A DNA stretch of 64,000 nucleotides from positions 1,550,001 to 1,614,000 of the forward strand of contig NZ_CP102275.1 of NCBI RefSeq assembly GCF_025149465.1, read 5' to 3'. This document shows positions 27,019 through 49,541 of the stretch, one piece after another. This DNA is from Thomasclavelia spiroformis DSM 1552. GTDB taxonomy: Bacteria; Bacillota_I; Bacilli_A; Erysipelotrichales; Coprobacillaceae. The position numbers and the translations under genes were made by a program. The notes under the pieces are model-generated. The model was not told where the DNA came from, searched no databases, and saw only the letters and a list, made by a program, of their open reading frames with translations. Within the stretch, counting starts at the first letter, position 1; the number at the start of each line of letters is the position of its first letter.

Positions 27019-29643
27019 TTACATCGTATCTAATTTTTCTTTAACTGCGTCATATTTTGATTGATAATCAGCTAATTTCTTTCTTTCTAATTCAACTTTT
27101 TCTTTTGGTGCTTTAGAAACAAATTTTTCATTAGCTAACATATTTTGACAACGTTTAATTTCTCCTTCAAGTTTACTTAATTGAGCTTGTAACTTTTCTT
27201 TTTCAGCATCTTTATCAATATAATCACCTAATTCTATTAATAAAGAATTACCACCTTTAATTGTAATATTTGCTACTTCACCAGTTGCTTTTAAATTGTA
27301 ACCTGAACAAATTGCATTACATAATTTTTTAATATATGGTAAACATTGGTCCATTAAACTTTCTAACTGACTATCTTTTGTATCAATAATATATGCAACT
27401 TCAATTGCATTTTTAATTGTATATTGACTTCTAATTTCACGAATTCCTTTAACAATATCAATTAAATATGTAAATTGATCATTAATTTGTTCATCATTAA
27501 AATCTTCATTTACTTCTGGCCATGAAGCAATACAAATAGATTCTTCAAGATGTGGAATTGCTTGGAAAATTTCCTCAGTTACAAATGGCATAAATGGATG
27601 TAACATCTTTACAATAGCATTTAAAACATATACTAAAGTATTCAAACTTGCTTGTTTTTCAACTTCATTTTCACTATTTAAATGAACTTTAGTTAATTCA
27701 ATATACCAAGAACAAAAATCATCCCAGATAAATTTATATAACTCTGTTCCAACATTAACAAATTCAAATTTATCCATATTAATATCTACTTCTCTAATCA
27801 CTTCATTTAAGCGATTTAAAATCCACTTATCACATAAATTTAAATTGTCAAATGTTAAATCTTCATACTTCATCGATTCATCAATATTCATTAAAACAAA
27901 TCTAGCGCTGTTCCAAATTTTATTAATAAAATTCCATGAAGATTCTAGCTTTTCAGGAATATAGCGTAAATCCATTCCTGGTGCCGAATTTGTTGTTAAA
28001 AAGAATCTAAGCGTATCAGCTCCATATTCATCAATAACATCCATTGGATCAACACCATTACCTAAAGACTTAGACATTTTACGTCCTTGTTCATCACGAA
28101 TCAAACCATGAATCAATACATTTTCAAATGGTCTTTGATCAGTAAAGTGTAATGATTGGAAAATCATTCTACTTACCCAGAAAAAGATAATATCATAACC
28201 AGTTACTAAAGTATTAGTTGGGAAATAGCGTTTAAATAACTCACTATCTTCATTTGGCCAACCTAAAGTTGAAAATGGCCAAAGTGCACTAGAGAACCAA
28301 GTATCTAAAACATCTTCATCTTGTTTCCAATTTTCAATATCTTTAGGAGGTTGTTTACCTACATAAACTTCTCCAGTTTCTTTATGATACCAAGCAGGTA
28401 CTTGATGACCCCACCATAATTGACGAGAAATACACCAATCTTCAATATTTTCCATCCATTGATTGAATGTTTTTTCAAAACGTTCTGGAACAAAATTTAC
28501 TTTAGAATCTTTTAATTGATTATCTAGAGCCATCTTAGCTAGAGGTTTCATTTTTACAAACCATTGTTTAGATAAATATGGTTCAACAATAGCATTACTT
28601 CTTTCAGAATGTCCAACTTGATGCATATGTTTTTCAATATGATCAACGATTCCATTAGCTTCAAAATCAGCAACTAACGCTTTACGACATTCAAAACGAT
28701 CCATTCCTTGATATTTATTTGCTAATTCATTCATTGTTCCATCATCATTCATACAAATTGGCATATCTAAATTATATTTTTTAGCTAAAGCAAAGTCATT
28801 AGGATCATGAGCTGGCGTACATTTCATAACTGCTGTTCCAAATGACATATCAATATAACTATCAGCCATAATTGGTAAAGGTTCTCCATTAGCTGGATTA
28901 ATTGCCTTTTTACCTACTAAATGCGTATATCTTGTATCATCAGGGTGAACAAAAATTGCTTGATCGGCAAACATTGTTTCAGGACGGGTTGTTGCAATGA
29001 CTAATTCTTCATCACTATCAACAATTTTATATTTGAAATAATACATTGCCCCTTCAATTTCTTTATGAATAACTTCAATATTACTTAATGCCGTACGTTG
29101 CATGGGATCCCAGTTAATGATTCTTTTACCTTGGTAAATCAATCCCTCATTATATAATTTAACAAATACTTCTTTAACCGCTTCACTTAATCCTTCATCT
29201 AAAGTAAAACGTTCTTTAGAATAATCAAGTGATAAACCTAATTTTTCCCATTGACTACGAATAATTGAGGCATATTCTTCTTTCCAAGACCATGCTTTTT
29301 TTAAAAATCCTTCTCTTCCTAAATCATAACGAGAAACACCTTCTTCTTGCATTCTAGCCTCTACTTTTGCTTGAGTGGCAATTCCAGCATGATCCATTCC
29401 TGGAAGCCATAAAGCATCATATCCTTGCATTCTTTTATAGCGAATGATCATATCCTGTAATGTAGTATCCCAAGCATGACCTAAATGTAATTTACCAGTT
29501 ACATTAGGTGGGGGAATAACGATAGAATATGGTTTTTTGCTTGTATCACCTGCTTCAAAATATTTTTTTTCAATCCACTTACGATATTTTCCTTCTTCTA
29601 CTTTATGATGATTATACTTTGGTTCTAATTGCTTTTTCATCAT
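27019..29643 (-). CDS. valS: Valyl-tRNA synthetase
   Basis: Class I aminoacyl-tRNA synthetase charging tRNA-Val and editing threonine. HIGH motif in [16 protein letters not shown], the CP1 editing domain, the KMSKS signature [10 protein letters not shown], the anticodon-binding domain and a C-terminal coiled-coil arm. The longest frame starts at 29655, but GGAGG lies six bases before the ATG at 29643. Controlled by a T-box leader; gene order spoVID-ysxE-valS as in B. subtilis. Confidence 0.97.
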
Positions 29644-39345: not shown

Positions 39346-40764
39346 TCATAAGTTTATAGAGTTGTAATAATCTAGTGCACTTATAAATCCGTATATTTTT
39401 AATACTTCATTTGTAAGTGTCCTTTTTAGTATGAAGCTATTGGCGATGTGCCAGTAGCTTTTTCTTGTGTTTGCCCATTCCCATGCCTTACTTTTATTAA
39501 TACCTAGTTTTTGTAAATTTCTATACCTTGTTCTTACTAACTTCCATCTTTTCCAATATATCATTCGTATTCTTCTTCTCATCCATGAGTCTATTTCCCT
39601 TAGATGTTTACTCATATTCGCTATCCTATAGTAATTCACCCAACCTGTAATGTATTCTTTTAACTCTTTAGCTAATTCCTTACTTGATATTGGTCGGTTC
39701 CTTTTGGTGATTTCCTTTATTCTCTTTTTCATCTTTTCTTTAGATTTCTTGTGAACAGTGATTCGTACATTACCACTCTTCTCTATATAAAATCCAAAGC
39801 CCAAGAATTTTATATCAGTAATATAGGCTACCTTTGTCTTCTCTTGGTTCACTTTTACAAATAATTTCTCTTCTAAATATCTTGTCACTGTTTCTTTGAC
39901 TCTCATTGCACTTCTTTTACTTTTGAATAGTATGACACAGTCATCTGCGTACCTTACAAATCGATTTCCTCTTCTTTCCATTTCTTTATCAAATTCATTA
40001 AGATATATATTTGATAATAATGGGCTGAGTGGCCCACCTTGGGGTACTCCTTTTGTAGTTTCTTCAAACTTATGTTTTACTATGACTCCTGCATTGAGAT
40101 ATTTATGTATGAGTGATATAACTCTTCCGTCTTTAATAGTTTGTGACAATATCTGTATAAGTCTTGAATGGTTGACTGTATCAAAGTACTTCTCTAAATC
40201 TAGGTCTACTGTATATCGATATCCTTCATTGGCGTATTCGACTACTTTTCTTACTGCTTGATGGGCATTTCTTCTTGGTCGGAACCCATAACTATTGTCA
40301 CTGAATTGGGGTTCAAATATTGGTGTCAGTACCTGTACTATCGCCTGTTGTATGACCCTATCCGTCACTGTTGGAATTCCTAACTCTCTTTTCTTTCCGT
40401 TATCTTTTGGTATTTCTACTCTTTTAACGGCTTGTGGACTATAATGTCCCTCCATGATAAGTTTCTTTAGATAAGACCAGTGTTGTGCGAAATGCGTACG
40501 AACTTCTGCGACTTGCATTTTATCTACACCACCACTTCCCTTATTACTCATAACCCTTTGGATTGCCTTTTCTATATTGGCATCCTCCATAATTGTTTCA
40601 AGTAACTTCTCATGTACTACAAATCTATTGGTGTTCTTCGTATGTGATATCTCTTGTTTTGATGTAGGATACACTTCTCCACTATTGTCGTATTCCGTAC
40701 TATCTTCATAGAGTAAGCCTAATGATAGTTGACAGTATCCTATTTTATCTTGAGTATCTTTCAT
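39346..40764 (-). CDS. ltrA: Group II intron reverse transcriptase/maturase
   Basis: 472-aa intron-encoded protein. RT motifs include GVDKM, YRYTVDLDLEKYFDTVNH (RT2), KGVPQGGPLSPLLSNIYL (RT4) and RYADDCVILF (RT5, YADD). A thumb/maturase domain follows (ITGWVNYYRIANMSKHL ... AWEWANTRKSYWHIANS). No endonuclease domain follows, as in class C RTs. AAGGAGGTGA precedes the ATG. Promotes splicing and retrohoming of its intron and may serve the RT-defective copy 1. Confidence 0.95.
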   Translation of the reverse strand: MKDTQDKIGYCQLSLGLLYEDSTEYDNSGEVYPTSKQEISHTKNTNRFVVHEKLLETIMEDANIEKAIQRVMSNKGSGGVDKMQVAEVRTHFAQHWSYLKKLIMEGHYSPQAVKRVEIPKDNGKKRELGIPTVTDRVIQQAIVQVLTPIFEPQFSDNSYGFRPRRNAHQAVRKVVEYANEGYRYTVDLDLEKYFDTVNHSRLIQILSQTIKDGRVISLIHKYLNAGVIVKHKFEETTKGVPQGGPLSPLLSNIYLNEFDKEMERRGNRFVRYADDCVILFKSKRSAMRVKETVTRYLEEKLFVKVNQEKTKVAYITDIKFLGFGFYIEKSGNVRITVHKKSKEKMKKRIKEITKRNRPISSKELAKELKEYITGWVNYYRIANMSKHLREIDSWMRRRIRMIYWKRWKLVRTRYRNLQKLGINKSKAWEWANTRKSYWHIANSFILKRTLTNEVLKIYGFISALDYYNSINL

Positions 40765-41684: not shown

Positions 41685-42149
41685 TTAAATAATTTCTTTA
41701 AATTCTACTTCAAGCTGCCCTTTATCTACATAAATTACACAATACGATTTATTACTCCCTTGTCTTGGCAAAGTTGTAGAGCCAGGATTAATTAAATAAA
41801 ATCCATCAATATTATCACATTGAGGAACATGGGTATGTCCAGATAATAAAACATCACAACCATGACGTTGCAAATCATCTACCATCATCGTTTCTCTATT
41901 TAAATATCCATATCGATGCCCATGTGTTACCAAAAATGCTAAACCTTCTGTTTCGAACATAATTTCATCATCTAACTTGGCCATCCAATCATTATTACCA
42001 CGAACACTTATCCAACCTTTTAAATCCTTTTCCATTCCTTCACTATCACCACAATGAACATAAAAATCCCCATCTGGTTCTAATCTTTTTATTTCTTCAA
42101 TTATATTTCGATATCCATGATTATCAGACATTATTACTATTTTCTTCAT
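41685..42149 (-). CDS. YfcE/MJ0936-family metallophosphoesterase (YsnB-like)
   Basis: 154-aa calcineurin-like phosphodiesterase. Metal-binding motifs are MSDNHG (DxH), HCGDSEG (GD), GNND and HGHRYG with GHTHVP. Family members hydrolyse phosphodiesters in vitro; the natural substrate is not known. It follows gerM, like ysnB in the B. subtilis racE-gerM-rph-ysnA-ysnB cluster, though rph and ysnA are missing here. Confidence 0.9.
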   Translation of the reverse strand: MKKIVIMSDNHGYRNIIEEIKRLEPDGDFYVHCGDSEGMEKDLKGWISVRGNNDWMAKLDDEIMFETEGLAFLVTHGHRYGYLNRETMMVDDLQRHGCDVLLSGHTHVPQCDNIDGFYLINPGSTTLPRQGSNKSYCVIYVDKGQLEVEFKEII

Positions 42150-42194: not shown

Positions 42195-43103
42195 TTATAT
42201 TTTAATTCGATTATCAACTTTACCATTTACATCTTCTACTGGTGCTATTTCTTGACCATCGATGTATAAAGAAACTTTTTTTACATTTTCTAAATGACTT
42301 GCTGATTTTACTATTTGATTATATAAATTATTATCAATTGATTCATTATCATTTAAAATATTACTTGCTAAATAGATATTTAAATGCCCTTCATTTAATG
42401 AACACTGTTGTACTAATGTTAAAGGTTGTTCAGATTCAATTTCCTTTAACATCAATGATACTTTAGTATCGATATCATTATCTTGAGTCTCAATTCTTTT
42501 AGTAATTGGAACATAATATTCTTGATTATTAATTGTTTTAGTATTATAAACAACTACTGGTACAGTTTTATATAAATAATTACTTGTTGATTCAAAATTA
42601 TTAATTCCAAGTCTATTAGTAATACAGCTAGCTGGAATAGTACTATTTTTTAACGTACTAACATCATTACCATCAATTTTTAAATTAATTTTTTCAATGT
42701 CGCCTACACAAAAAACATAAGATAGCATTTCAAAAATATCCAAAGCTTCTTGATTATTTTCAACATATAAATGATCACTAAAATCAAATGTTAATGATTT
42801 ATCATTAATAGCAATCGCATTTACTTGTAAATTTGCATCTAAAATTGGATGTAATCCTAAATACTCATAGTCTTTAGATTTCATTACTTCAATTAAATTA
42901 CGATATTTACTATCGTCTTCTAAATTTTGTTTTAAATCAATCTCAATCGGTACTAGCATATTATCATCATCTCTAAAAACAACGGTTTGATAATTTGTAT
43001 TTACTACTTCTTTTTTTTCCTTTTTATCATCTTGTTTAAAATAAATGATTCCAAATCCTAAACATAAACATACAAAAATGCTTAAAAGTACTTTGATTCG
43101 CAT
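42195..43103 (-). CDS. gerM: GerM-domain sporulation/germination lipoprotein-like protein
   Basis: N-terminal membrane helix (VLLSIFVCLCLGFGIIYF) and two GerM-type repeats, one around NLIEVMKSKDYEYLGLHPIL...LSYVFCVGDIEKINLKIDG and one around MLKEIESEQPLTLVQQCSL...VSLYIDGQEI; 302 aa. GerM in bacilli helps form the engulfment channel and spore cortex. The Cys residues in the helix give no clear lipobox. GAGGTGG before the ATG at 43103 sets the start. Lies after murI as in B. subtilis. Confidence 0.85.
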   Translation of the reverse strand: MRIKVLLSIFVCLCLGFGIIYFKQDDKKEKKEVVNTNYQTVVFRDDDNMLVPIEIDLKQNLEDDSKYRNLIEVMKSKDYEYLGLHPILDANLQVNAIAINDKSLTFDFSDHLYVENNQEALDIFEMLSYVFCVGDIEKINLKIDGNDVSTLKNSTIPASCITNRLGINNFESTSNYLYKTVPVVVYNTKTINNQEYYVPITKRIETQDNDIDTKVSLMLKEIESEQPLTLVQQCSLNEGHLNIYLASNILNDNESIDNNLYNQIVKSASHLENVKKVSLYIDGQEIAPVEDVNGKVDNRIKI

Positions 43104-43171
43104 ACTTACCACCTCATCATATTTTATGAAACAGATACTTTAAAATACCAAAAAATCTTTTCATTAATATA

Positions 43172-43198
43172 AAAAATAGATTAGCTTAGCTAATCTAT
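43172..43198 (-). terminator. Terminator of murI
   Basis: TAGATTAG / CTAATCTA stem, then ATTTTTTATATT on the minus strand, overlapping the murI stop. Confidence 0.72.
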
Positions 43199-43975
43199 AA
43201 TCAAATGTTCAACTTTTAAATTAGTATAATCAAAAAAGCCTGATGATGAATAAATAAATTCATCAACATCACCAGTAGTATATATTTTAGTATAACTACA
43301 TTTATTAAAATTTAATAACTTTTTCCTTAATAAAATATCCTTAACACTTTTACTAATTGCCTCACTACTAGAAACATATTCAATATTAGGCAATACATTT
43401 TCTATTTGCTCTTTTAAAATAGGATAATGTGTACATCCTAAAATAATCGATTGAATTCTTTCTTTATATTCATCAAGATATTCATGTAAAATATCATAAA
43501 TTCCTTCTTTATATTTTCCTGATTCTACCAAAGGTACCAATTTAGGAGTTGCTAGTGAAAAAGTTTCAATTTTACTATCAATTTGTTTAATTGTTTCAGG
43601 ATATTTATTAGACTTAATTGTTGCTACAGTAGCAATTATTAAAGTATTTGCTACCTTACGATTAATAAAATCATTAACTGTTGCATCAATTACCCCAATG
43701 ATCATTACTTCAGGATAAGTCATTTGTAAACGTTCTAATACTGTAGAACTAGTTGTATTACATGCTAAAACAATCAATTTAACATTTTGTTTAATAAAAT
43801 ATTCAACGATACCGCTAGCATATTTAAACAATTGAGCTGGGGTCTTATCGCCATAAGGGCAATGATAATTATCCCCAATATAAATGATATTTTCATTTGG
43901 AAGCAATGATTTAATTGAATTTAAAACGGTTAAACCACCTACTCCTGAATCAAAAACTCCGATTGCTCTTTCCAT
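43190..43975 (-). CDS. murI: Glutamate racemase
   Basis: Makes D-glutamate for peptidoglycan. Both catalytic cysteines are present: LACNTTSST and LGCTHYP. The N-terminus shows the family motif IGVFDSGVGGLTVL and YIGDNYHCPYG; 261 aa. The gene lies between a VanY-like gene and gerM, within a cell-wall/spore cluster. Confidence 0.95.
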   Translation of the reverse strand: MERAIGVFDSGVGGLTVLNSIKSLLPNENIIYIGDNYHCPYGDKTPAQLFKYASGIVEYFIKQNVKLIVLACNTTSSTVLERLQMTYPEVMIIGVIDATVNDFINRKVANTLIIATVATIKSNKYPETIKQIDSKIETFSLATPKLVPLVESGKYKEGIYDILHEYLDEYKERIQSIILGCTHYPILKEQIENVLPNIEYVSSSEAISKSVKDILLRKKLLNFNKCSYTKIYTTGDVDEFIYSSSGFFDYTNLKVEHLIID

Positions 43976-43979
43976 TTAA

Positions 43980-45137
43980 TTACTCCTTATTATCTTTATA
44001 TTCTTCTAATGCTAAATTTTGATTATGTAAAATAGTAGCGATTTCTTTACCTACATATCTAAATGTAGTTGGACTATATTCATGTCCAGTTACTTCTACT
44101 TTATCTGCTGGATAACGTAAAATAAAACCATATTCATAACTATGTTCCATTAGCCAAGCGTAAATATCGGTTTGGTTAAAATCTTTTACGCTTATTTCTG
44201 ATTTTTGTAAATCAACAGTACTTCCTAATTGATACTCATTATACCCAGCTACTACACCTCGATCTTCTAAAAGAGCCACATCATATCCAATAAATGATTT
44301 AGTTAAAATAAGCCCCTTATCACATTCTTTATAACAAGCACGATACATTTCTAATAGATTTTGATATGTTTCTTCTTGTAAATACATAAAATGTTTAATT
44401 CTTGGAATTCCTGAGGCAATGACTAATTTTTTAGGTTCATAACCCCCTATAAATGTCTCATTATTTATAACTATAGATAATTTACTTGGATTATATATTC
44501 TTTTAGCATTCGGTAATAGATCTTGATTAAATAGTGTTGCTAATGAAGTTTTATTATAATTAACACATAATTGCTTAAAACTATCATATAATTCATTATC
44601 ATCTAATTGATCAATCTCTTTCATTTTATTTAAATAATTATTTGTATCACTCACATATGTATAATCAGTTTCATCATAAATAGCTCTTAACATCTGATAA
44701 TATTCAATATTATCAAAATCAAAATTTTCTTGATTAATATATGCTTCTACAAGATCATTTTTAATCAATATATCACAATAACTTAAAGCCCTACTTGCAA
44801 AAGATACCTCTAATTTATCTGCCAACTGATTACCCACACTAATCAAATTATTTAAATCAGGATATTTATTTATTTTATCCAAAGCATTATAAAACTTATA
44901 ATTCATTAAATTAAAATCCGGAATTTCAATATATTTAATAAACTCATTGACTGCAATTGCATTTTCAATCAAATACTCTTGTTCTTCATCATCTAAATAC
45001 ATTTCAATCAATGCTCGATTATCATTATTAATTCCATTCACTCGATAAAACTCATCATATTTACGATTTATTGAAATAAATGCAATACAAAAACATAACG
45101 TTACTACTACATATAAATGCCATCTCTTTAATTTCAT
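43980..45137 (-). CDS. VanY/M15B-like protein with lost zinc site
   Basis: 385-aa protein with an N-terminal membrane anchor (LYVVVTLCFCIAFISI), an unassigned helical region and a C-terminal D-Ala-D-Ala carboxypeptidase-like domain. The usual zinc motif SxHxxGxAxD reads NEYQLGSTVD, so His is Tyr; the usual ExWHxRYVG reads YSPTTFRYVG, so both the catalytic Glu and the His ligand are gone. Fold retained, peptidase activity improbable. AAGGTGA sets the ATG at 45137. Between gerE and murI, 4 bp from murI. A role in binding wall peptides during sporulation is a guess. Confidence 0.78.
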   Translation of the reverse strand: MKLKRWHLYVVVTLCFCIAFISINRKYDEFYRVNGINNDNRALIEMYLDDEEQEYLIENAIAVNEFIKYIEIPDFNLMNYKFYNALDKINKYPDLNNLISVGNQLADKLEVSFASRALSYCDILIKNDLVEAYINQENFDFDNIEYYQMLRAIYDETDYTYVSDTNNYLNKMKEIDQLDDNELYDSFKQLCVNYNKTSLATLFNQDLLPNAKRIYNPSKLSIVINNETFIGGYEPKKLVIASGIPRIKHFMYLQEETYQNLLEMYRACYKECDKGLILTKSFIGYDVALLEDRGVVAGYNEYQLGSTVDLQKSEISVKDFNQTDIYAWLMEHSYEYGFILRYPADKVEVTGHEYSPTTFRYVGKEIATILHNQNLALEEYKDNKE

Positions 45138-45189
45138 AACATCACCTTGTATCATTATATACCAACAATAAATAAAAAACCACTTTAAA

Positions 45190-45220
45190 TTAATAGACCG
45201 AATTTAATTCGGTCTATTAA
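45190..45220 (-). terminator. 31-nt perfect palindrome at the end of gerE
   Basis: TTAATAGACCGAATT and its exact complement around a single central base, 15-bp arms, overlapping the gerE stop. Little T-run follows on either strand, so it is a weak terminator or RNA-stabilising hairpin rather than a classical terminator. Confidence 0.55.
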
Positions 45221-45420
45221 AACTCCAATTCCTTTAATCTAACCAATTCAAAAACCGCTTGAATTCTTGAATCAACTCCTAATTTTTGAATAACATTAGA
45301 AATATGATTACGAACCGTTTTTTCGCTAATCTTTAATATTTGAGCAATTTCTTTAGTTGAATGATTATTTATTAAAAGAGTAAAAACCTCTCTTTCTCTT
45401 GGAGTAAGAATGATATTCAC
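45217..45420 (-). CDS. gerE: Late spore regulator GerE (LuxR-type HTH)
   Basis: 67-aa protein that is only a LuxR-type DNA-binding domain: LTPREREVFTLLINNHSTKEIAQILKISEKTVRNHISNVIQKL. Lack of any receiver or sensor domain and its size match GerE, which tunes sigma-K spore-coat genes in the mother cell. In B. subtilis gerE also lies upstream of racE/murI and gerM, supporting the assignment. Confidence 0.88.
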   Translation of the reverse strand: MNIILTPREREVFTLLINNHSTKEIAQILKISEKTVRNHISNVIQKLGVDSRIQAVFELVRLKELEF

Positions 45421-45462: not shown

Positions 45463-47229
45463 TTACGTGTCTTTTTTCAAAACGTTAAAAAGATTAGCTG
45501 CTACTTCTTTGGGTAACACTTTTTCTAATTGTTCTAAACTTGCTTCTTTTAATTGTTTAACACTGCCAAATTCTTTTAATAATAATTTTTTACGTTTCGG
45601 TCCAATTCCTTCAACATTATCAAGAATTGATTGAAACAATGACTTTGAACGAACATTTTTATGAAAACTTATTGCATAACGATGTACTTCATCTTGCATC
45701 CTAACTAATAAAAAGAATAATTCACTTTTTTTATCAATAGCAACTTCATTACCTTCGCTATCTAAAAGCATTGAAGTAGAGTGTTTATCATCTTTAGCTA
45801 AGCCACAAACCATAATATTTAAATTCAAACTATCAATTACTTCTTTAGCTACTTTGATTTGCCCTTTACCACCATCGACAATAATTAAATCCGGTCTTTC
45901 TAAATTTTCCATTAAAACCCGATAATAACGTCGATAAATTACTTCTTTCATACTTGCATAATCATCAGGTCCTTCAACTGTCTTAATTTTAAATTTTCGA
46001 TAATCTTTTTTAGATGGCAATCCATCTTTAAAACAAACCATTCCAGCAACAGCATACGATCCTTGAATATTAGAGTTATCAAATAATTCAATTCTTCTAG
46101 GTAAGTCAATATTCAACAATGAACCTAATTGCTTAATTGCACCAATTGTAGAAGCTTCATTTTTTTGAATCAATAAAAATTTCTTTTCCAATTGTTCCTT
46201 AGCATTTTCATTGGCCATAGCTACTAAATTAGCTTTATTTCCTTTTTGGGGTTTGATAATTTTACATTTAATAATTTCCTGCAATAACGAAACATCCAAT
46301 TCTTTTGGTACTAATAATTCCTTTGGTTCCGTATTTTCTTGATAAAATAACACTAAAAAAGAAATAATTTGTTCTTGAAAATCATCTTGCATTGGTACTA
46401 AGTTCAAATCACGGGCCAAAAGCTTACCATTACGCATAAAAAATAATTGCAAACACAAATATCCTTTATCATGATAATATCCAACAATATCACGATCAAC
46501 TAAATCATTAAACTGAACATGTTGTTTACTAGTAACATGTTGAATATGACTAATTAAATCACGACATTCTTTAGCCAATTCATAATTTTGCACTTCACTA
46601 GCATTATACATTTTTTCTTGCAATTCATTAATTATTTGCTTAGTATCCCCTTGAATAAATTTAGTAATATTTGATGTTATTTGTTTATATGTTTCTTCAT
46701 TTACTGTTTGAATACATGGTGCTAGGCACTGATTTAAGGAATAATATAAACATGGTTTTTTAGGAATGTGATTACATTTTCTTAATGGATATAGACGATT
46801 TAATAATTTAAATGTTTCTCTTGCAGCAGTTCCATCGGGAAATGGTCCAAAATGACGATGTTTTTTATCTTGGGCATTTCTGACAATTTTTAAACGGGGA
46901 TGTCTTTCTTTAGTAAGTTGGATGTATGGATAATATTTATTATCCATAAAAGAGATATTGTATTTTGGTGAATAATCTTTGATTAGATTTATTTCTAATA
47001 ACAAAGCTTCTTTTTCAGAATCAGTAACAATATAATCAAAATCAACAATTTCATGAACTAATTTAGTTGTTTTATAATTATGAGCTCCAACAAAATAAGA
47101 AGAAACACGATTTTTTAATTTCTTAGCTTTTCCAACATAAATAACATCACCGTTTTTATCTTTCATCAAATAACAACCAGGTAATAGCGGTAATAAAGAA
47201 AGCTTATCTTTTATCATTTTACGGTTCAT
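45463..47229 (-). CDS. uvrC: Excinuclease ABC subunit UvrC
   Basis: Dual-incision nuclease of nucleotide excision repair. N-terminal GIY-YIG domain (LPGCYLMKDKNGDVIYVGKA), UvrB-interacting UVR segment (EVQNYELAKECRDLI), the RNase H-like endonuclease domain (ELFDNSNIQGSYAVAGMV, LIIVDGGKGQ) and C-terminal helix-hairpin-helix (VEGIGPKRKKLLL); 588 aa. Overlaps mutS2 by one base (TAATG). Confidence 0.96.
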   Translation of the reverse strand: MNRKMIKDKLSLLPLLPGCYLMKDKNGDVIYVGKAKKLKNRVSSYFVGAHNYKTTKLVHEIVDFDYIVTDSEKEALLLEINLIKDYSPKYNISFMDNKYYPYIQLTKERHPRLKIVRNAQDKKHRHFGPFPDGTAARETFKLLNRLYPLRKCNHIPKKPCLYYSLNQCLAPCIQTVNEETYKQITSNITKFIQGDTKQIINELQEKMYNASEVQNYELAKECRDLISHIQHVTSKQHVQFNDLVDRDIVGYYHDKGYLCLQLFFMRNGKLLARDLNLVPMQDDFQEQIISFLVLFYQENTEPKELLVPKELDVSLLQEIIKCKIIKPQKGNKANLVAMANENAKEQLEKKFLLIQKNEASTIGAIKQLGSLLNIDLPRRIELFDNSNIQGSYAVAGMVCFKDGLPSKKDYRKFKIKTVEGPDDYASMKEVIYRRYYRVLMENLERPDLIIVDGGKGQIKVAKEVIDSLNLNIMVCGLAKDDKHSTSMLLDSEGNEVAIDKKSELFFLLVRMQDEVHRYAISFHKNVRSKSLFQSILDNVEGIGPKRKKLLLKEFGSVKQLKEASLEQLEKVLPKEVAANLFNVLKKDT

Positions 47230-49541
47230 TATTCAAAATATACTAAGGTTGCCCCTAGCCCTCCTTCGTTAGGACCGCCATCACGATAACTAACTACATA
47301 TTTATTTTTATCAAGTAATTTACGCACACCATTTCTTAAAACACCAGTACCCATACCATGAATAATTCTTACCATTGAATAATTATTTACTAAGGCATCA
47401 TCTAAAAATTTATCAACAAGTGCCATTGCTTCTTCATAGCGTTTACCAATTATATTTAATTCAAAACTTTGATTTGTTGATTTACGTAATGCTTTAAGAT
47501 TTGATTTAACTTTTTTAGGTTTAACTTTTTTAGAAATAAAGCTAACTTCTTCAGGTTTAGCATTTAGTTTTAAACCACTCATATCAATTGTTAAAATCCC
47601 TTTTCTATTAATTGAAAGAATTTCTCCTTGACGATTAGCAGACAATACTTTAACAATATCCCCCACTTGATAAACATGATTTGTTTCATTAACAACTTTC
47701 TTTTCTTCATGTTTTAATAAATCAAGATTTCTTTTAGCATCAATAACAACATGTTGTTTTAATACTGCTTGTTTTTTTAAATCCTCAACGACTAAATCAA
47801 TTTCTTGTTTTGAATCTTCTAATAATTGATTAGCTTCTTTTTTAGCTTTTTCCATTAAATCATCTTTTTGTTTTTCAAAATTACTAATTAAACGATTATA
47901 TTTATTTATCTTATTAGTAGCTTCATGATTTAAAGCTTCTAATTGATCTTTTTGAATCTGAATTTGGGCTAATTCATCTTGAAGCTTTTCCAATAATTTA
48001 TCACTATCAGTCAAACTACTTTCTTTAATTTGATAAGCTAATTCAACAATTTCTTTTTTTAAACCTAATCTTGAAGAAATCTCAATAGCATATGAATTAC
48101 CAACACTACCTTCAATTAAACGATATGTCGGTTTCATATTTTCTTGATCGAATTCTACTGCAGCTACTAAAATATATTCTTCATTTTTGGCATATTCCTT
48201 TAAACCAGAATAATGTGTAGAAGCTACGATAATTGGATTTACTTGATGTAAATATCGTAAAATTGCTTCTGCAATACTTTGACCCTCTTTAGGATCAGTC
48301 CCCGAACCAATTTCATCTAATAAAACTAACGATTTTTCAGTTGCCTCATTAGTAATTTCAACTAAACGTTTCATATGACTTGAAAATGTTGATAATGATT
48401 GTTCAATTGACTGTTCGTCACCTAAATCAACACATATTTGATCAAACATTGGAATCGTTGCTTGATTACAAGGAACCGCCATTGCACATAATCCCATTAA
48501 ACTTAATAACCCAGCTGTTTTTAAAACTACTGTCTTTCCTCCAGTATTTGATCCACTGATTAACAATATTCGCTTAGGACTAGTTAAAACAATACTATTT
48601 GCAACAACTTTATCACGATCAATCAACGGATGACGAGCTTTAATTAAACTAAAATTAGCATAATCTTCGTTAATACTAGGAACAACACCATCAATTTGAA
48701 TTCCATAACCAGCTTTAGCAAAAATTACATCAACTTTTACTAATAATTCTTGATTTTCATGTAAACAATCATAATTATCTTTAACTTGTTTTGAAAGTTC
48801 CATTAAAATTCGATTAATTTCTTTGATTTCATCATCACGAGCATGAATCAACTGATTATTCATTGCTACAATCACTTCTGGTTCAATAAACATTGTCGAA
48901 CCAGTAGCTGAAACAGCATGAACAATTCCTTTAACACTATTTTTATTTCCAGCTTTAACCGGTAAAACCAAATGATTATTACGACTAGAAATAGCTTCTT
49001 GTGATAAATAATCTTTATTGGCAACTTTAATTTGTTCCATTTTAGCTCTAATATTTGTTTCAATCGATAATATTTGTCTTCTGATTCGACGTAATTCTTT
49101 ACTAGCACTATCTAAAACATTACCACTACTATCAATACAACGATTAATTTCTTTTAATAGTTGTTTTGGTAAAATGAATTGATTACATAATTGAATCAAT
49201 TCATTTTCTTCTAATTCTTTATCTGATAAATAATTAATTATTTCTTTAACATTATTTAATAAATAAACTATTTGTACAAAATCTTCACCAAATAACATCC
49301 CATCTTTATTAGCTTTTGATAATAAAGTTTCAATATCATTGTAGTATCCAATTGGTAAACGACCATATTTATAAATAAGCTGCATCGCTTGATCAAGATA
49401 CTTTTGGTTTAATTTTAAATCGTCTAAATCATCAAAGGGCTGTAATTTAGTAATTTTATCTTTAGCTAAATTTCCTACACAAAAACTTATAACTTTATTT
49501 TTAATTTGATTAAATTCTAATGTATCATATATGTTTTTCAT
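47229..49541 (-). CDS. mutS2: Endonuclease MutS2
   Basis: MutS paralogue implicated in recombination control and ribosome rescue. Core clamp domain, ATPase Walker A SGSNTGGKTVVLKT and Walker B LVLLDEIGSGTDP, a long coiled coil (about residues 510-600), a KOW-like segment (YQVGDIVKVLSANRQGEI) and a C-terminal Smr domain (RIIHGMGTGVLRNGVRKLL). The Smr LDLRG motif reads LNIIG. 770 aa, normal length. Order cvpA-mutS2 resembles B. subtilis yshB-polX-mutS2 without polX. Confidence 0.95.
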   Translation of the reverse strand: MKNIYDTLEFNQIKNKVISFCVGNLAKDKITKLQPFDDLDDLKLNQKYLDQAMQLIYKYGRLPIGYYNDIETLLSKANKDGMLFGEDFVQIVYLLNNVKEIINYLSDKELEENELIQLCNQFILPKQLLKEINRCIDSSGNVLDSASKELRRIRRQILSIETNIRAKMEQIKVANKDYLSQEAISSRNNHLVLPVKAGNKNSVKGIVHAVSATGSTMFIEPEVIVAMNNQLIHARDDEIKEINRILMELSKQVKDNYDCLHENQELLVKVDVIFAKAGYGIQIDGVVPSINEDYANFSLIKARHPLIDRDKVVANSIVLTSPKRILLISGSNTGGKTVVLKTAGLLSLMGLCAMAVPCNQATIPMFDQICVDLGDEQSIEQSLSTFSSHMKRLVEITNEATEKSLVLLDEIGSGTDPKEGQSIAEAILRYLHQVNPIIVASTHYSGLKEYAKNEEYILVAAVEFDQENMKPTYRLIEGSVGNSYAIEISSRLGLKKEIVELAYQIKESSLTDSDKLLEKLQDELAQIQIQKDQLEALNHEATNKINKYNRLISNFEKQKDDLMEKAKKEANQLLEDSKQEIDLVVEDLKKQAVLKQHVVIDAKRNLDLLKHEEKKVVNETNHVYQVGDIVKVLSANRQGEILSINRKGILTIDMSGLKLNAKPEEVSFISKKVKPKKVKSNLKALRKSTNQSFELNIIGKRYEEAMALVDKFLDDALVNNYSMVRIIHGMGTGVLRNGVRKLLDKNKYVVSYRDGGPNEGGLGATLVYFE

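Follow-up and report, generated by a model that had tools for sequence, protein, structure and literature searches.

The protein encoded at 43980..45137 (minus strand) of the window, by which we mean the whole 64,000-nucleotide stretch of Thomasclavelia spiroformis DSM 1552 DNA that was analysed, has the properties of a degenerate peptidase: the catalytic residues of an M15B carboxypeptidase have been lost, the fold has been kept, and the gene is under purifying selection. We call this protein pVanY. Our main reading, to which we assign a probability of about 0.6, is that pVanY is a vegetative, non-enzymatic wall factor that is not specific to spores; any named partner for it is less likely than this reading itself. 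The host genome is a single contig of 2.53 Mb, and the features of the gene and its product are as follows.

43980..45137, minus strand: pVanY (pseudo-M15B protein), 385 aa, with an in-frame upstream ATG at 45155
45060..45125, minus strand: predicted single N-terminal transmembrane helix, residues 5-26, from the AlphaFold helix and the sequence; basic residues precede it
45003..45059, minus strand: juxtamembrane motif YDEFYRVNGINNDNRALIE, residues 27-45, from an alignment of 23 family rows
44508..45059, minus strand: N-terminal all-helical domain, residues 27-210 (184 residues), pLDDT 93.3
43989..44507, minus strand: M15B/LdcB-fold domain, residues 211-383, from the AlphaFold model and structure superposition
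44289..44291, minus strand: Ile283, where the substrate-carboxylate Arg (Arg120 of S. pneumoniae LdcB, the YRS arginine) belongs
44211..44240, minus strand: NEYQLGSTVD in place of SxHxxGxAxD, residues 300-309, with Ser and His lost and Asp kept
44058..44075, minus strand: SPTTFR in place of EPWHxR, residues 355-360, with Glu and His lost

A longer reading of the open reading frame (43980-45155, minus strand) gives 391 aa; the start in relatives corresponds to the ATG at 45137 and the 385-aa product. The AlphaFold model has a mean pLDDT of 91.9. The protein is predicted to be inserted in the membrane through its N-terminal helix, with the helical and M15 domains on the outside. The M15 domain superposed on zinc-free BaLdcB (4jid) over 170 residues with a Z score of 24.7 and an rmsd of 1.7 A, and Pfam matched VanY with 43.8 bits (cut-off 25) over profile positions 60-132 only, the second half of the model; together these identify an LdcB-type domain of the M15B fold. 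The best NCBIfam and PDB sequence matches were of the VanY/VanXY type, with scores far under all NCBIfam cut-offs (74 against 425 bits). Up to an E-value of 10, Pfam reported nothing in pVanY besides VanY (M15) and no M23 domain, so the protein is not LytM by descent. The helical domain of the window copy matched no Pfam family and no solved structure (Foldseek E at least 3.5; VIA Z at most 4.7), the latter result being no proof of a new fold. Conservation is highest in residues 27-45, not in the pocket: mean column identity across the 23 family rows is 0.86 in this juxtamembrane segment versus 0.47-0.62 in the M15 regions, where E301, Q303, L304, G305, R341, T350 and G363 are invariant in all 23 rows.

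Passages in PMC4087270 give His153, Asp160 and His207 as the zinc ligands of pneumococcal LdcB, universally conserved in LdcB, describe Glu204 as invariant, and state that Arg120 (Arg or Lys) contacts the product carboxylate and that Gln125 and Ser151 are strictly conserved. The corresponding residues in pVanY are Tyr302, Asp309 and Thr358 at the zinc-ligand places, Ser355 for Glu204, and Ile283, Ala and Asn300 for Arg120, Gln125 and Ser151. Alignment by phmmer to VanY-B (5hnm) pairs NEYQLGSTVD with SEHQLGLAVD and SPTTFRYVG with EPWHYRYVG, which places the replacements as Ser to Asn, His to Tyr, Glu to Ser, Trp to Thr and His to Thr. An earlier note on this DNA had described a VanY-like protein with replaced motif residues, and the Pfam and phmmer matches confirm that description. 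Its further statement that all visible zinc-site motifs are lost stands for both zinc histidines, the Glu and the Ser, but not for the zinc Asp (D309), which remains; the exchange of the YRS arginine for Ile283 is a loss that it did not list. A complete His-Asp-His site elsewhere in the protein was searched for and not found. Among 38 aligned family rows there is no conserved substitute zinc His, as every histidine in the C-terminal domain is missing from at least 11 of them (kept in 27 at most), and an alternative zinc site was rejected on this ground. Judged by its residues, pVanY appears to be a catalytically dead member of the M15B fold.

A pVanY orthologue was present in 41 of the 43 genomes from the window's family that were covered by a protein search, the exceptions being G015 (72% complete) and G025. 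Because both zinc histidines and the Glu are missing from all 38 aligned family rows, the altered motifs cannot be put down to chance; the Asp is kept in 6 of 38. The first zinc His is replaced by Tyr or Phe in 26/38 rows and the second by Ile, Thr or Val in 36/38, a mostly hydrophobic refilling from which the pocket appears to have been remodelled, not randomly decayed. Asp occupies the Glu place in 21/38 rows and His the Trp place in 22/38, amounting to a pair shifted by one position; as a candidate new catalytic D-x-H pair it fails in the window sequence, which has S and T instead. Values of dN/dS (NG86) were 0.08-0.15 for pVanY in six pairs within the window's genus and 0.02-0.19 for murI in four pairs. 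pVanY is under purifying selection in the genus, and these ratios together with its conservation rule out pseudogene decay. At two loci, L045 (G001) and L043 (G024), pVanY is split into two frames, by sequencing error or recent loss; both genomes are Spo0A-positive.

The surroundings of the gene agree with the placement first given for it, between gerE and murI.

41685..42149, minus strand: calcineurin-like phosphoesterase, directly adjoining pVanY in non-spore-forming relatives
42195..43112, minus strand: gerM-like gene with a Germane domain
43176..43198, minus strand: terminator-like hairpin and T run after murI
43190..43975, minus strand: murI, glutamate racemase, starting 4 bp past the pVanY stop
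45190..45220, minus strand: strong hairpin after gerE, 14 pairs with a T-rich tail (z -3.5), unflagged by the terminator scan
45217..45420, minus strand: gerE-type HTH gene, 67 aa
45463..47229, minus strand: uvrC, directly adjoining pVanY in non-spore-forming relatives
47229..49541, minus strand: gene that we take to be mutS2-like, outer part of the conserved block

The hairpin at 45190..45220 stands between gerE and the pVanY-murI pair and, because hairpins follow both gerE and murI, this pair may form a transcript of its own. The conserved order of the locus is mutS2-uvrC-[gerE]-pVanY-[murI]-[gerM]-phosphoesterase. In spore formers of the window's family it runs uvrC-gerE-pVanY-(murI)-(gerM)-phosphoesterase, and the block mutS2-uvrC-(gerE)-pVanY-(murI)-(gerM)-phosphoesterase is found again in the sister family, where 41 loci have uvrC in view. 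The order in B. subtilis is presumably gerE-ysmB-racE-gerM-ysnB. In a family outside the order (f10), murI follows pVanY at 4/4 loci. At one locus outside the order, L133:3200-4949 (G301), the two genes are paired without uvrC, gerE, gerM or the phosphoesterase alongside, and their neighbours are NAD-kinase-like and DEAD-box-helicase-like genes (named by eye). Just downstream of the cluster in the window, positions 39346-40764 (minus strand) encode a group II intron reverse transcriptase/maturase (RVT_1 and GIIM).

A sporulation-specific protein would be absent where sporulation genes are missing, and pVanY does not behave in this way. In nine genomes of the window's family (G010, G011, G019, G020, G026, G027, G030, G031 and G032) it lies directly between uvrC and the phosphoesterase; at the locus in these nine genomes no gerE, murI or gerM was found, and searches of the same genomes gave neither SpoIVA above cut-off nor any Spo0A match, with a weak SpoIVA fragment in G026. 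Only G025 lacks SpoIVA, Spo0A and pVanY together, and the gene is kept in 9/10 family genomes negative for both markers. It has outlived sporulation at two separate places in the family tree, one being L018 and the other a set of eight; a passage of PMC8340488 reports loss of sporulation in several clades of Erysipelotrichaceae. Two further genomes, G004 and G024, gave no SpoIVA match but have gerE and Spo0A, and their missing SpoIVA was taken as draft gaps; G009 has SpoIVA and no Spo0A match. The role in spore wall formation that the earlier note had suggested is not supported as the conserved role, given this retention in genomes that do not form spores and have no gerE or gerM nearby.

Across the order, SpoIVA was above cut-off in 66/294 genomes, and pVanY was present in 64 of these 66 versus 97 of the other 228 (Fisher p 1e-17, uncorrected for kinship). 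With 64/66 SpoIVA-positive genomes carrying the gene, pVanY may have an additional role in spore formers. In the sister family, 86 genomes carry pVanY without SpoIVA above cut-off. It is gerE at the locus that matches SpoIVA status, at 38/40 loci of the window's family and 40/41 of the sister family (uvrC in view), with pVanY at all of them; the position of pVanY beside gerE and gerM is inherited gene order. In the window's genome two Spo0A_C-domain genes lie adjacent on opposite strands (G000:C1:27906-28202 and 28339-28650), and two or more Spo0A_C matches occur in each of the nine genomes of the genus.

The wider spread of pVanY was followed with A2, an N-terminal profile built from 17 rows of the window's family and 3 of the sister family. 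In the order A2 found pVanY in 162/294 genomes, comprising 42 of the window's family, among which the match in G025 is weak (E 4e-5) and was left out of later counts, and 120/251 of the sister family, where it is missing in the remaining 131. A class-wide draw of 296 genomes gave, outside the order, four genomes of f10 and weak matches in G358 and G455, whose SEH and EPWH motifs are complete and which were taken as ordinary relatives. Loci were taken as 43 from the sister family and then 20 regions (13 sister-family orthologues, 4 from f10, 2 ordinary relatives and L143). Catalytic states were read in 99 orthologues, 40 from the window's family, 55 from the sister family and 4 from f10. Excluded were L013 and L114 (truncated), L137 and L138 (full-motif VanY relatives from other families) and L143 (no N-terminal match). 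The zinc triad is absent from 71 of the 99, present without the Glu in 18 and present with the Glu in 7; 2 rows keep two ligands and 1 (L145, at a contig end) was unreadable, seven of the states having been set by eye (5 triad without Glu, 2 no triad). All rows of the window's family and of f10 are without the triad, and the sister family shows three stages at one locus: triad with Glu (L101, L112, L115, L121, L146, L147 and L152), triad without Glu, and neither.

For a quick tree, from which the motif columns were omitted, L043 and L045 were also dropped (frame broken), leaving 97 orthologues opposite 10 M15B paralogues. A branch with SH-aLRT 100 splits the two sets. The substrate Arg place holds Arg in 1 of the 97 orthologues (L044) and Lys in 6, versus Arg in 10/10 paralogues. 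A single sister-family group of 28 (support 90) holds most rows that keep the triad. A minimum of five changes of zinc state is required on this tree, which has 32/104 branches open and a poorly resolved backbone and underlies the relations given for the sister family and f10. If a complete zinc site is assumed to be hard to regain, the Arg would have been lost first and zinc later. The zinc state is independent of sporulation: triad loci occur with gerE (L107, L113, L117, L122) and without it (L098, L106, L112), and triad-free loci are likewise of both kinds. In our main reading pVanY is vertically inherited.

The window's genome has three other M15B genes at different places, all with SEH and EPWH motifs, and two of them keep every listed active-site residue; in the third (L001:955-1980, plus strand) Asn takes the place of the zinc Asp (SEHQLGLGVN) and the other motif residues are kept. 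By hhalign, the M15 part of pVanY with its lead-in (columns 208-382) aligned to the M15B paralogues with a probability of 99.9%, and its N-terminal domain gave no significant match to their N-terminal part (0.9%); an origin as a full-length duplicate of a paralogue is not supported by these values. A link between pVanY and other M15 genes was looked for in matches to A1, the alignment of 23 family rows, counted by eye: they were missing from 20/294 genomes, none of them pVanY-positive, and nearly all pVanY-positive genomes of the sister family, with G245 as an exception, had at least two. Kinship and the query itself both confound these counts, which do not serve as evidence. At a different locus, the M15 protein encoded by L074:1620-2672 (plus strand, G250) also has a site that looks dead (PGYADAQLGLSVSV ... 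AVPNYFRYVG). Its gene adjoins a pseudouridine-synthase-like one (named by eye); the protein retains the YRS Arg, and its site was lost by a route other than that of pVanY.

Because a dead domain on a tether is combined with a conserved juxtamembrane motif and with ordinary paralogues in the same genome, the data suggest a binding or recruiting factor, and all results are consistent with a pseudo-carboxypeptidase that is anchored in the membrane and serves in binding or regulation. In the mechanism that we propose, pVanY would sit in the cytoplasmic membrane with both domains outside and act in vegetative wall metabolism, not in spores specifically. Its helical juxtamembrane part would dock on a membrane partner, which could be a wall synthase or one of the active M15 carboxypeptidases encoded elsewhere in the genome, and the dead M15 domain would hold a stem peptide or the partner and so recruit or gate trimming. 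Peptide binding, the identity of the partner and regulation are all putative parts of this scheme. Against the wall-factor reading, the gene is dispensable in some lineages, being missing in over half of the sister family (131/251), and the seven orthologues with triad and Glu mean that the orthologous group is not purely pseudoenzymatic.

The excess of pVanY among SpoIVA-positive genomes (64/66 versus 97/228, uncorrected for kinship) also counts against that reading, since it would fit a part-time role in sporulation. Taken further, and with the gene lying between gerE and gerM in genomes of spore formers, it could point to a spore-specific pseudoenzyme that works with gerE and gerM in building or remodelling the spore cortex or the wall laid down at engulfment, like SpoIIQ of B. 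subtilis, a degenerate LytM protein. We consider this unlikely, given that the gene persists at two tree places after sporulation, gerE and gerM have gone and that a hairpin parts gerE from pVanY-murI. An enzyme with altered chemistry, using another metal, residue set or substrate, would account for the seven orthologues that have His-Asp-Glu-His without the substrate Arg and for the shifted Asp and His of the window's family; it seems improbable, however, because the shifted pair is lost in the window sequence and the zinc places vary, with no conserved C-terminal histidine and no single replacement set. The steep difference in identity between residues 27-45 and the M15 regions would also be explained if the function lay in the helical juxtamembrane domain, acting for instance on a partner in the membrane, and the M15 domain were inert ballast or a spacer. 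This has a small chance of being right, as the M15 domain is kept in 23/23 rows with invariant residues of its own.

If pVanY is a vegetative wall factor, its conservation among common gut bacteria suggests a component of the wall machinery that has not been described before, and within a well-known gene cluster it sets vegetative functions apart from those in spores. Its orthologues form a natural series from enzyme to pseudoenzyme at one locus. A broader and more tentative proposal, which we hold to be possible and somewhat doubtful, is that the degenerate LytM factors have a counterpart of M15 type, a second class of dead wall peptidases, in the form of an order-wide vegetative regulator at one locus with staged loss of substrate Arg, Glu and zinc in that order; forms with zinc and Glu, with zinc only and without zinc could then be compared directly in one gene. 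In mostly open-access literature (titles and starts of abstracts), no M15/LdcB or VanY-domain pseudoenzyme of this kind was found among the matches listed, nor was such a protein among those listed for the window's genus and carboxypeptidases. Degenerate M23/LytM regulators are already known, and the novelty lies in a degenerate LAS wall peptidase derived from M15 instead of M23.

Compared with known systems, pVanY shares its fold with the M15B enzymes LdcB/DacB (Z 24.1 for BsLdcB 4ox3, 24.7 for BaLdcB 4jid and 16.3-16.6 for pneumococcal entries) and the sequence context SEHQLG / EPWHxRYVG, but it lacks both zinc histidines and the equivalents of Glu204, Ser151, Gln125 and Arg120, and it has an extra helical domain of ~185 residues. 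The VanY/VanXY D,D-carboxypeptidases are nearest by sequence; unlike them pVanY has lost the active site, and no van cluster is implied. The Hedgehog signalling domain, an M15-like fold that works by binding and has kept its zinc, shows only a distant fold likeness to the M15 domain (Z 7-9). The degenerate LytM factors EnvC, NlpD and DipM are, like pVanY, retained non-catalytic peptidases of the LAS superfamily; they are M23 proteins with known partners, whereas pVanY belongs to M15. PMC8416486 and the abstract of PMC10336132 describe the inactive M23 members EnvC and NlpD as regulators of wall hydrolases, and by analogy pVanY may best be read as the M15 counterpart of these degenerate LytM regulators.
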